A stretch of 64,000 nucleotides of DNA from Blepharisma japonicum (taxonomy: Eukaryota; Ciliophora; Heterotrichea; Heterotrichida; Blepharismidae): the NCBI GenBank assembly GCA_949751835.1, contig CATKHK010000067.1, positions 186,001 to 250,000 on the forward strand. The letters run 5' to 3'. Below the pieces are notes generated by a model. It was not told where the DNA came from, did not search any database, and saw only the letters and a list, made by a program, of their open reading frames with translations. Shown piece by piece: positions 19,715 to 40,961 of the stretch (positions are counted from its first letter, which is position 1; every line of letters starts with the position of its first letter). The translations under genes were made by a program, and so were the position numbers.

Positions 19715-20134
19715 ATGGATTATCTCGAAGCCTTACGTCCGCCTTTTTGGAGTAAAGGCGATAGCTCTTTTTTATGGATTTATGTGTTGATATTAATCTT
19801 GCTATTTTCAGCGTATATCAAGCTTAGAGATTCAATATACCACAAAAATACGTTTTCTGAAGAAAATTTGAATCGAACTAGACTTGAAGTGAGGTCAAAT
19901 TGGGAAAGACGACAAGAAGAGTTAAGGAGGGCAAGAGTTTATGAGGAAGAAGAAAAAATTGAACCAAAACCAGATATTGAAGAGGAAAAAAAGCCTGAGC
20001 CAAAAAATAGTGGACTTCCACAACCTCCAAGACCGGTGAAAAAAGCTGAGCTTAACCGATATGACCCGAGTGGGCCTCGAATAGGAAGGCCAAGCTCATA
20101 CACAGCACCTTGCGCTACTGGAACTTGACGTTAG
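19715..20134 (+). CDS. SELENOS: SELENOS/SELENOK-like protein, penultimate TGA codon
   Basis: The 139-codon frame runs from ATG 19715 to TAG 20132-20134. The N-terminal membrane helix ('FLWIYVLILILLFSAYIKL') is followed by a charged helix ('RSNWERRQEELRRARVYEEEE') like the VIMP/SELENOS coiled coil ('RQEALAAARLKMQEE'). A Pro/Lys linker and the C-terminal 'RYDPSGPRIGRPSS' recall 'GYNPLSG' of SELENOS and the Gly/Arg tail of SELENOK. The end is C-A-T-G-T-[TGA]-R. In both selenoprotein families Sec is the last, penultimate or near-last residue. The three other Trp codons in the gene are TGG, and a SECIS-like element starts 20 bases after the stop. I infer that TGA here is Sec; Trp cannot be excluded. 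SELENOS works in ER-associated degradation. Confidence 0.65.
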
Positions 20135-20154
20135 TCCAGAAGATTGTACTAATA

Positions 20155-20201
20155 CAGCCAAGTGAAGAACAATCCTAAAGATCTGGGTTATTCAGAGGCT
20201 G
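20155..20201 (+). promoter_or_regulatory. SECIS-like element
   Basis: Helix I is CAGCC (20155-20159) with GGCTG (20197-20201). The core has G-TGA (20162-20165) opposite A-GA (20094 series: 20194-20196), giving tandem sheared G.A/A.G pairs. Helix II pairs 20167-20175 (GAACAATCC) with 20185-20193 (GGGTTATTC): seven canonical pairs, one wobble and one C/A mismatch. The apical loop 20176-20184 starts T-AAA, placing the conserved A's 11 bases after the TGA of the core, as in eukaryotic type I SECIS. The first core base is G rather than the usual A. It lies only about 27 bases after the recoded TGA, closer than in mammals. Confidence 0.6.
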
Positions 20202-21111
20202 AATAAATTAAATATTTTCAAAAATTCATTCTAGGTTCTAACTAGCTGTAATATTTTCATCATATATTTTGTTAATAGCATAACCTGATATTATAAATCT
20301 ATAGAAAAGCGTTTAACTTCGTTCTCACCTTTTTATTTTTCAGCCATTAAATCTATAGAACTCTATTTATTTCCATATGATAATATGAGCATCTTTTATA
20401 TCATTTTTGACTGAGTCGCTAATAATATATGTGCTCAATGGGCTGCACATCTTATTAATAGAAACTATTCGATTTACTTAAATACTGAATTAAAATGGTG
20501 TTTGATTTAGCGTTTATTAAGACTATAAAAATTTCTTGCTCTAGTAAATCCTTATTATCTCATTTAATTTTATAAATGATTATTGAAAAAGTGATCATCT
20601 AGAAAGACAAAGGCTATTATTAATTATATCATAAAGAGCAGCTAAAATTCAGGAAAATTTTTATGACTAAATTTTTGATATAAAATATCATTATACAGCT
20701 AGATATTTGATTCGACAAATTTTCAAAAGAATATATAATCAATGAGTATTTAATTATTTAAGAAGTAATAGATAACAGTTATTTTAAATAAAGCTCTAGA
20801 ATAGTGACTTTTCAAAGATAATGACTCATTGCTCAAAATTAATCTCTTCAGTATAAGATGCTAAAATATGGTTAGCTAATCTTTTTCGCATTTTCAAAGT
20901 GTAAAACACCTTTTCAAAAAAAGAAATAAGATATATCTAAAATTTTTATTGTCTATCCATAGTGAATGAACTTAAATCCTCATTGAATTCACTGACATCA
21001 GCCAACTGTTACATTTTCCCCCAGCTCTTTTTTTTTACTAATATTGCTCTCTATAAATTTACTTTTTCGCTTGATTTCTCTTCAAATTTCGAATTAGATA
21101 ATCTCACTATA
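20202..21111. other. AT-rich intergenic region before the PDE gene
   Basis: No supported gene apart from the SECIS-like element at its left edge. The frame of the PDE gene is open from 20941 but contains no ATG before 21112. 20941-21111 may therefore be 5' leader, or part of the coding region if an upstream exon exists. Confidence 0.45.
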
Positions 21112-23343
21112 ATGACTAAAATAGGCATTGGAAGAACCACAACTCAAGAGGGTTATCCTTTTTCAGCAACTGATATGCCATTAAAAGACGAATTGCTTAG
21201 CCAAATCACGATAGGCCGTTTCTTGAAATTTTCAAATGACTCGATTGAAATGATGTACCAAAATCTTATTGTAAACTGAAATCGGTACCCTGAAAAAATT
21301 ACAAAATCATTTAAGCAAGATTTAAGACTGTACTTATATAGTTATTATCTCCTTTCCGTTGTTTACTTAATATTATACATTGTAGCAACCTCTGATCATG
21401 ATAGTGGAAATATAAGTGCTTGCACAATTGGACTGATGGCAGGGCATATGGTCTTCAGCACGATTATGTATTTTCTGAGCTTTTATACGAATTTATTTAG
21501 ATCGTTGAGAGCTTCAGCTTTAATTCTCACATACTTGATCATAGCTGCAATCCTAATAATCAACAATCAACCTGTTCAAGAACTAATTTTTGATGAAAAA
21601 ATGGATCACTATATGTCATGCATGCTTGGCCTGCTGATTCTTCTGTCTGTCTCTAGCTCAATCATACATACAAACTTATCCTGATTTTTTATCATAAACT
21701 TAATCATTGCGATTTTCTATTTGATTATACATCTCTGCTCTAACCAAAGCATATCAACAACTTTTTTTGAATTTTCAATTTATATTTCAAGAGTCTTTAT
21801 TGAGTCTAAAAAATTTTACTTGCACGAAATCATATCTCGTGAAAAATTTTTAGCTTTCAAAAGAAATGGAGAAGACCACGTTTCATCAAGTGAGCCACAA
21901 ACAGAAATAGAAGAGATCATGGGCTACCTTAAAGAGTCAATTGAGTGCACAAAGCTGCTATCACAATCTGTGATACCAACTAGAAGTAAAATAGGAAGAG
22001 TACAAGAATTATTAAATAAAGTCATAGATATCATAAGATCCAAAAGCAATATTTATAAAGTCAGCATTGATGCTATTACAAAAAACCTAGATGAAGATGA
22101 TAGGGTTTTTATAAAGGAAACTACCAATGACTCTCAGCCAATAGCGAAGCTGAGAAGTAAAATCAAGATAAGGAAAACTGACGAAATCATAACAATCCAT
22201 AAAGCATATAACACAGATGAACTTATTGGCGTTTTAAAACAAATTGGGAAGAACTGGAATTTTGATATGTTTTTTGTTAGGGAATGCACACAGAATCAAC
22301 CTTTATCTACCATGGGGAGGTATTGCATAAAAAAATACACCCTCGACGAAACGCTGAACATAAATGATGAGGTTTTTATGAACTACTTTTATGAGCTGGA
22401 AATGAGGTATAAAGATAACCCATATCATAACTCAACACATGCAGCTGATGTACTGTCATCAGCTATGTTTATGATTAACCGCTCATTATTAGCTGACTTG
22501 CTCTCTGATTTTGATTTGCTTGCTACTATTATTGCATCTTTGGGACACGATGTCGCCCATCCTGGATTTACTAATAGGTTTCTTATTAACAACAAAGATA
22601 TTTTAGCTATAAACTGTAATTTCTAAGCAGACAATGATTACTCAGTCCTTGAAATGATGCACTGCTCAACTACTTTTCAAATAATGCAGGAAGATCACTC
22701 CAACATTTTAGTTTCTTTGGATTTCGATCACTATGTAGCAGTTAGGAAACTGATAATTGAGATGATTCTTTCTACTGATATGAGCAAGCACTGGGATTTT
22801 TTGGCACAATTTAAAGCAAAGACGCTAACTGGGCCAAAAAATATTGATAAACTAGAACAAAGGGTCGATGTACTGAAACTGGTAATTAAGTCAGCTGACG
22901 TAGGTCATGCTGCAAAAACAAGAGACTTGCACTTAAAATGGAGCAGGCTTGTATGTGAAGAGTTCTTCGCACAAGGTGACATCGAAAAATCTAAAAATCA
23001 GCAGGTTTCGATGTACTGCGACAGAGAAACTACAGATATTCCTAAATCACAAGCAGGGTTTATTAGAAATATTGTACTTCCTCTCTATGAAGTTTTAGCT
23101 GGGTATTTTGCAAGTCCTTATATTGACGAAAGCTGTTTAGAGCAGGTAAAAGTGAATCTTCTTACTTGGGAGTATGAAATGGGCAGAAACCGCGTAAAAA
23201 CTCTTACACAGCCTGGAGAGTCCATAGGGGACACTGACAATATGGCTGCTGAGACACCCAGGTATAGAAGGGTGGGAACACAAATTATGAAAATTGATCC
23301 TGATACTATTTCTTGGCTCCAGAAAAAATATCAAGCTAGTTAG
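21112..23343 (+). CDS. PDE: Multi-TM class I cyclic nucleotide phosphodiesterase
   Basis: The spliced protein has 738 aa from the ATG at 21112. Six or so hydrophobic segments occupy the first 230 residues. A coiled-coil-like linker follows, then a C-terminal HD-type PDE domain: 'HNSTHAADV' with the catalytic His and metal His, 'LGHDVAHPGFTNRFLINN', and after a 15-nt intron (22616-22630) 'INYNDYSVLEMMHC', 'TDMSKHWDF' and 'KSADVGHAAK'. It hydrolyses cAMP and/or cGMP; specificity cannot be read here. It is a membrane PDE of the type known in ciliates and apicomplexans. TGA(Trp) occurs at 21277 and 21682. It would oppose the PKG pathway encoded at 13253. Confidence 0.92.
22616..22630 (+). other. 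15-nt intron (PDE gene)
   Basis: GTAATTTCTAAGCAG. Removal changes 'INCNF-stop' into 'INYNDYSVLE', the conserved PDE segment, which proves the splice. Confidence 0.96.
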
Positions 23344-40739: not shown

Positions 40740-40961
40740 TTAAATTCCACCTAATGATTTATAGGTTTCAGTAAGGCTTGGGATATGACCACGCTTGGAA
40801 AGCAATACAGGCTCAAATGATACCTTTTTCTTAGGTGGAAAAAATGTTTGAGTGCTAAACATCGGCGATTTAACTAAAATTTCATTTTCACCTACCTTTA
40901 AATTCAGCTTAGTAGGTTCAGTTTTAAGGCTTTTATTTGGTTTAAAATTCTTCTCACTCAT
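40740..40961 (-). CDS. Small hypothetical protein, 73 aa
   Basis: A complete ATG-to-TAA frame in a tight head-to-tail series: 18 bases after the upstream stop and 41 bases before the next gene. The protein is basic (NFKPNKSLKTEPTKLNLKV, PPKKKVSFEPV) with no domain recognised. Clean codon use and tight packing support it as real. Confidence 0.5.
   Translation of the reverse strand: MSEKNFKPNKSLKTEPTKLNLKVGENEILVKSPMFSTQTFFPPKKKVSFEPVLLSKRGHIPSLTETYKSLGGI

Follow-up and report, generated by a model that had tools for sequence, protein, structure and literature searches.

A penultimate UGA, a SECIS-like element and a recurring 3' cassette in a SELENOS-like gene of Blepharisma japonicum

In Condylostoma magnum and Parduczia UGA stands for Trp, stop and selenocysteine (Sec), and the UGA of the thioredoxin reductase (TrxR) described there lies shortly before its SECIS element, against a model of 51–111 nt (PMC4967479, Swart 2016, in the part available). 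UGA of Euplotes crassus is read as Cys and Sec, also within one mRNA; selenoprotein-specific SECIS elements limiting Sec to the C-terminal end are described for Euplotes and mammalian TrxR, and a minimum UGA–SECIS distance of 51 nt is cited (available part of PMC3737529). According to the available parts of both sources, UGA means Trp and Sec in Blastocrithidia, with both meanings within one gene, SelTryp (PMC12153298), and in Amoebophrya, where the only UGA tRNA found is tRNA-Sec (PMC6394959). The production of Trp and Sec from one codon is not new in kind, as it is already found in PMC4967479, PMC6394959 and PMC12153298. A cis-element other than SECIS is the proximal stem-loop SL1 in the 3'UTR of human SelS, which raises Sec insertion and was compared with the Selenocysteine Redefinition Element (SRE) in the available part of PMC3628699.

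The locus described here belongs to Blepharisma japonicum (45.2-Mb assembly, 224 contigs) and lies in a window of 64,000 nucleotides, the whole stretch of DNA that was analysed. Like Condylostoma magnum and Parduczia, this organism appears to combine UGA=Trp with Sec, a tRNA-Sec(UCA) being known from C. magnum, and the UGA shortly before SECIS recalls their TrxR. Unlike in Blepharisma, UGA is also a stop there, and TrxR alone is described, with no shared linker or fixed spacing over families in the available part of PMC4967479. As in E. crassus, UGA has two amino-acid meanings; they include Trp and not Cys here, and the stop-to-core distance is 124–138 nt there versus 27 nt here (26 nt in one gene, D). 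Blastocrithidia and Amoebophrya likewise have a nuclear genome in which UGA serves for both Trp and Sec. They belong to other lineages, and their selenoproteins differ (SelK, SelT and SelTryp in the former, selT, selM and selO in the latter), and the available parts of PMC12153298 and PMC6394959 describe no cassette. The linker presented below is comparable with SRE and SelS SL1 in being a cis-element near the Sec UGA, separate from SECIS, but unlike these stem-loops (of SelN and SelS, as far as PMC3628699 was available) it is a linear motif after unrelated genes in which no consistent hairpin is seen by eye. No report on Blepharisma selenoproteins was found in the literature within reach, most subscription papers and all preprints lying outside it.

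Gene A and the element behind its stop codon

Gene A occupies positions 19715–20134 of the plus strand and consists of 137 sense codons, TGA (Sec), Arg and stop, which gives an ORF of 139 codons with UGA as sense. Its translation reads MDYLEALRPPFW...RPSSYTAPCATGT-[TGA]-R-stop and its 3' end ATGT-TGA-CGT-TAG. The putative Sec codon, TGA at 20126–20128 (plus strand), is codon 138 and thus the penultimate one; it is followed by CGT (Arg) and the TAG stop at 20129–20134 of the same strand, the SGY-TAG common to all six cassettes described below. Reading of the ORF confirmed the claim of the initial annotation that this is the lone TGA in the frame, the remaining three Trp codons being TGG. The SELENOS/SELENOK layout, which had also been claimed, is visible by eye in the translation as one apparent N-terminal transmembrane segment with a charged helix, and the penultimate TGA is present. 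It did not find a counterpart in Pfam, and membership of gene A in SELENOS/SELENOK was not established by profile. Pfam SelS (PF06936) gave no match to gene A and a sub-threshold one to paralogue B (18.2 bits versus the curated cut-off of 29.8), and it matches one of four members of the A family. A search of PDB with the A-family profile up to E 10 returned weak unrelated matches and no SelS chain. It is highly probable that the product of gene A is a small membrane selenoprotein resembling SELENOS, with EFSec delivering Sec at one UGA in SECIS-bearing mRNAs.

The SECIS element of gene A (20154–20202, plus strand) begins 20 bases beyond the TAG stop. Helix I is formed by CAGCC (20155–20159) and GGCTG (20197–20201), the core by the quartet GTGA (20162–20165) opposite GA (20195–20196), and helix II by 20167–20174 and 20186–20193, while the apical loop carries AAA at 20177–20179, 11 nt past the quartet. 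The fold proposed earlier from the letters was thus recovered with its helix I, its GTGA/GA core and its apical AAA at 11 nt; helix II had been given as 9 positions and is counted here as 8 positions with 7 pairs. The suggested check against SECIS models came out negative, as none of the five matches of the Rfam covariance models to 20050–20500 (cmscan, up to E 10) belongs to a SECIS family. The folding energy does not stand out, z being -1.16 for a segment of 102 nt and -1.95 for one of 53 nt, and energy folding of an 86-nt fragment yields a different structure, in which UCCAGA is paired with UCUGGG. Taken by itself, the element is modest evidence.

A 3' cassette common to six genes

Six genes (A, B, C, D, D2 and E) have a cassette in common, composed of TGA-SGY-TAG, a linker and SECIS. 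Genes C, D and E were found by pattern search with the conserved tail, and D2 via the model R2, built from the elements of gene A and the unrelated gene D. Paralogue B (contig C40, minus strand) is 33–40% identical to A and ends RSRG-TGA-CGC-TAG. Gene C (contig C44, locus positions 937–1509) encodes a PUB-domain protein (Pfam PUB, E 7.1e-17) that ends RGG-TGA-CGT-TAG, with C-terminal GG-U-R; in the available part of PMC7539508 a PUB-domain protein is named, without details, among the Sec-containing families of algae. Gene D (contig C74, minus strand, locus positions 1662–1513) encodes a small protein that starts MGNCFSG and ends CWTG-TGA-CGC-TAG; D2 (same locus and strand, 1087–938) reads MGCMFSS...ARRG-TGA-CGT-TAG. 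These two genes stand in tandem, and each protein has 49 residues and ends in G-U-R; for protein D no homologue and no Pfam family was found. We take both N-termini to be myristoylation-like. Gene E, a thioredoxin reductase, carries the same cassette as gene A after GC-TGA-GGC-TAG, and its GC-TGA-G was aligned with the C-terminal GCCG of the PDB TrxR chain 1h6v, where a Cys stands for Sec. PUB domains and SELENOS are both tied to p97/VCP, and the two candidate selenoprotein families (PUB and SELENOS-like) may serve this pathway. A search of viral and genome contigs confirmed no PUB homologue.

The linker motif of gene A, TAG-T-CCAGAAGATTG, lies at 20132–20146 of the plus strand. It also stands after unrelated genes, and every exact genome match listed is a cassette. 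The linker equals NYCARAAGATYG in five of the six genes, and the tail TGA-SGY-TAG-N-YCARAAGATYG is present in five; in the D2 tail TGA-CGT-TAG and ...CAGATTG are retained, and three positions differ from the motif. The distance from UGA to quartet amounts to 33 nt in A, B, C, D2 and E and to 32 nt in D. From the stop to the quartet there are 27 nt in the cassettes (26 in D) and 13 nt in a glutathione peroxidase (GPx) gene, where the linker is missing. The cassette spacing lies below the 51-nt minimum cited in the available part of PMC3737529. In unfiltered long ORFs CGY accounts for 135 of the 1168 Arg codons, and 14 of the 66 stops are TAG; as both are minority choices, their recurrence in the cassettes is unlikely to be codon habit. 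Because of the kinship of A with B and of D with D2, the six genes count as about four independent families. A consistent hairpin or pseudoknot was looked for in the linker by eye and none was found. The linker would at least leave room between SECIS and a ribosome that has reached the UGA, and the conservation of its letters may suggest a role beyond spacing.

Searches of the genome with the tail pattern gave 10 hits at up to 3 mismatches (5 cassettes, 3 of the hits exact) and 5 with the reversed pattern as control. A 34-base tail pattern at up to 2 mismatches gave 23 hits, 4 of them exact and all of these cassettes, with 14 in the reversed control, and an exact pattern with a variable gap gave 13 hits, including 5 cassettes, with 3 in the control. 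The reversed controls imply that loose matches are mostly chance, so the case rests on the exact matches together with the adjoining genes and SECIS; cassettes with a diverged motif and a different codon after UGA may be missed by such patterns. The 8 non-cassette hits of the variable-gap pattern were rejected, having no linker by eye and no R2 match. In other collections the cassette pattern was met in 1 + 3 viral contigs and 4 genome contigs, none of which is by eye a gene end with SECIS. Neither a shared linker nor a fixed spacing below 51 nt was found in the literature searched (most subscription papers and all preprints were outside reach), and the recurring Sec tail of fixed geometry looks new.

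A candidate with internal Sec was found among the glutathione peroxidases: one of eight matches has TGA at the catalytic position (NVACE-TGA-GLTT), aligned with Cys of 2v1m and of the 7 paralogues. In this gene (contig C59, locus positions 1462–1965) SECIS (1971–2021) directly follows the stop without the linker motif, its quartet lying 13 nt past the stop and 379 nt past the UGA. The Rdx family (SelT/SelW) gave eight matches, seven without internal TGA and one with a single TGA. The correct frame was read for four of the eight, and in two a TGA occupies the place where a paralogue has TGG for Trp; three of the eight matches stop short of the profile start, which leaves room for Sec in a SelT/SelW relative.

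All seven elements possess the GTGA/GA quartet core, and in all seven an AA lies 10–13 nt after the quartet and 15–39 nt before GA, in agreement with the SECIS spacing in the available part of PMC2375036. When their 3' arms were exchanged, the native arrangement alone among 5040 reached 93 of 98 pairs, and the mean fell from 13.3 of 14 pairs in the native elements to 7.1 with exchanged arms; the helix registers were set by eye and the pairing rule was derived from the very seven elements tested. Both helices are therefore kept across seven elements of the same genome, and the lack of helix conservation that had been named as counter-evidence was not observed. R2 gave 61.7 bits for A (a training element), 37.6 bits for D2 and 32.8 bits for B. 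The score was weak for the element of GPx, a gene related to neither A nor D (23.2 bits, E 0.0086), and likewise for those of TrxR (E 0.08) and PUB (E 1.5). A further weak R2 match at window positions 40809–40857 (14.6 bits, E 1.4), not at a listed ORF end of the type TGA-NNN-stop, is probably due to chance. A scan of 670,608 bases, both strands, with the SECIS rule yielded 10 distinct hits, namely the seven and three others; the loci overlap in part and the rule derives from the seven elements. The cross-gene R2 matches and the arm exchange show that the gene A element, in form a SECIS of eukaryotic type, goes beyond chance.

Nineteen ORFs of at least 40 codons end with TGA-NNN-TAA/TAG in a sample made up of the window and the loci retrieved by searches, hence not a random one. 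The six cassette genes among them reach 12–14 of the 14 SECIS pairs. Among the remaining 13, some of which are maybe not genes, a SECIS candidate is absent from 12 and attains 9 of 14 pairs in one. A 246-codon ORF that ends TGA-CGG-TAA without SECIS candidate is a possible natural contrast, with the penultimate UGA as Trp.

Homologues were compared at the TGA column. Gene A has two: P0001 of B. stoltei, 91% identical, named Selenoprotein S by UniRef and ending ATGTWR, and P0002, the single A homologue found outside B. stoltei, which ends ...CVTGS exactly at this column. Gene C has 12, of which P0003 of B. stoltei ends GGWR, while the 11 PUB homologues outside B. stoltei all terminate at the column, with KG or GG as their last residues. 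TGG in orthologues had been proposed as an argument against Sec. The 12 proteins from outside B. stoltei stop at the column, which speaks against TGG or TGC and not against an ancestral stop. P0001 and P0003 of B. stoltei show W there, which either TGA or TGG would give. With W standing at the TGA column in the B. stoltei records of A and C, selenoproteins of that species may be misannotated.

The Sec machinery and the two probable meanings of UGA

A search of the genome for tRNA-Sec, EFSec and SPS had also been suggested, the lack of the first two counting against the proposal, and all three were detected. One of ten tRNA-Sec matches exceeds the cut-off of 47 with 75.6 bits, and ARAGORN reads this locus as tRNA-SeC(tca). 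EFSec is represented by domains III and IV in an open frame of 511 codons, and SPS was found with E 7.7e-62, with Cys (MKGCSCKVP) at what we take to be the Sec/Cys site. SepSecS was found as well, with E 2e-126 (contig C173, locus positions 1501–2685). Its gene shows a TGA for a conserved Trp, aligned with Trp of the human enzyme, and a 15-nt GT..AG intron with an in-frame TAG. This short intron, UGA=Trp and the 91% identity of the B. stoltei protein to that of gene A are all in keeping with Blepharisma.

The features of a nuclear code with UGA=Trp are present together: TGA at a conserved Trp, UAA/UAG as stops and a tRNA-Trp(CCA) with a 4-bp anticodon stem. At one Trp, A has TGG and paralogue B has TGA. 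A set of 66 unfiltered ORFs with 250 codons or more, drawn from the window and the retrieved loci, contained 214 TGG and 136 TGA codons; none of the 66 (the TrxR frame being outside this set) ends with TGA-NNN-stop or TGA-stop. A first tRNA-Trp pattern was discarded, as the anticodons of its 4 sites were read as tRNA-Arg and tRNA-Cys. The second gave 9 hits, against 2 in the control, and an identical tRNA-Trp(CCA) sequence is shared by 6 of the 9; ARAGORN, applied to 5 of these 9 loci, read 3 as tRNA-Trp(cca) and 2 as nothing. In the six identical genes with anticodon CCA, position 27:43 was read as an A.C mismatch, resulting in a 4-bp anticodon stem. Such a stem is reported for tRNA-Trp of Blepharisma, and tRNA-Trp(CCA) with it was shown elsewhere to read UGA, in the available part of PMC13092985. 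No fully cognate UGA reader other than tRNA-Sec(UCA) was found, given a search by one pattern that could miss a tRNA-Trp(UCA) whose T arm is unusual. Taken together, the cassette, SECIS, the machinery and the evidence for UGA=Trp support the initial idea that UGA means both Trp and Sec.

Gene B contains two in-frame TGAs, codon 26 (TGG in A) and codon 141 (cassette), and its mRNA should, as far as the codons tell, read UGA as Trp at the former and as Sec at the latter. The Trp UGA of B precedes its quartet by 378 nt and the Sec UGA of GPx precedes its own by 379 nt, so distance alone does not decide between Trp and Sec. By analogy with Euplotes and mammalian TrxR, a selenoprotein-specific SECIS restricting Sec to the C-terminus may be at work in gene B, or else the cassette linker.

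Alternative explanations and what the tail may do

The codon, SECIS, the genes of the machinery, the shared cassette and its constant spacing are read in the DNA itself, and on this basis the following course may be envisaged. In an mRNA bearing SECIS, EFSec would deliver Sec-tRNA(UCA), and Sec would be inserted at one specific UGA. Among the six genes of the C-terminal class this UGA is followed by one codon (SGY), UAG and the linker, which places the SECIS quartet 33 nt downstream. Sec reading is favoured by the TGA at the redox position of TrxR and of one GPx, both with SECIS-like elements. An ordinary Trp codon next to a chance fold would fit the usual folding energy of the A element (z -1.16) and its lack of an Rfam SECIS match, yet it is hardly credible in view of the cross-gene evidence and of only three extra hits of the SECIS rule in 670,608 bases on both strands. 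The gene could also have once ended at the UGA, whose reassignment to Trp then added Trp-Arg up to UAG, with no Sec involved; homologues ending at the TGA column and the W of the B. stoltei records are what such a fossil stop would leave. This history is very improbable, because the same TGA-SGY-TAG-linker-SECIS unit follows TrxR, with UGA at the Sec position of that family, because SECIS stands at near-constant spacing in six of six genes, and because 12 of the 13 other ORFs with TGA-NNN-TAR (some maybe not genes) lack a SECIS candidate, one having 9 of 14 pairs.

If Sec is inserted, it would have to compete with tRNA-Trp. In organisms that keep UGA as a stop, termination is the rival of Sec insertion, and failure results in a truncated protein. 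In Blepharisma failed Sec insertion would yield a full-length Trp protein, which offers a clean test of SECIS against another aminoacyl-tRNA. Since tRNA-Trp(CCA) has the stem that reads UGA (available part of PMC13092985), the competitor would add an amino acid and the chain would not be ended; SECIS might then be partly effective, so that one UGA gives Sec and Trp forms in a ratio set by selenium supply. The sequence as such holds nothing against such mixed decoding, but the sole fully cognate UGA reader found (by one tRNA-Trp pattern) is tRNA-Sec, and we regard it as unlikely. With the tRNA-Trp found being near-cognate and tRNA-Sec the only cognate UGA reader found, models of decoding become testable.

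As for the linker, which would act as spacer or signal, we put forward as a tentative but serious possibility that UGA-SGY-UAG-NYCARAAGAUYG at 33 nt from the quartet is a gene-independent second cis-signal. Together with SECIS it would favour Sec-tRNA over Trp-tRNA, even beside a Trp UGA in the same mRNA, and would form a portable "Sec tail" working at a distance otherwise regarded as too short. The linker could instead be shared merely by descent of the 3' ends from one ancestral 3' end, without any job. Such an origin agrees with the paralogy of A and B, the tandem look-alikes D and D2, the resulting number of about four independent families and the weak D2 motif with its three mismatches. 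It appears rather doubtful, however, as the adjoining SECIS helices diverged while the linker letters and the spacing stayed, and as CGY and TAG are both minority choices in the genome. The shared linker is a new element for testing, several unrelated genes besides TrxR depart from the cited minimum of 51 nt by their 33-nt geometry, and gene B (Trp UGA, 378 nt) with GPx (Sec UGA, 379 nt) makes a natural pair for what sets the meaning of the codon.

Two minor observations concern the assembly and the window. One of four contig ends inspected holds the CCCTAACA unit, which is the telomere repeat of B. stoltei in the available part of PMC9942806, and the other three do not. The next gene downstream of A (window 20962–22626) encodes the beginning of a 3'5'-cyclic nucleotide phosphodiesterase (PDEase_I, E 1.8e-18); as its ORF ends inside the PDEase_I domain, an intron may come next.
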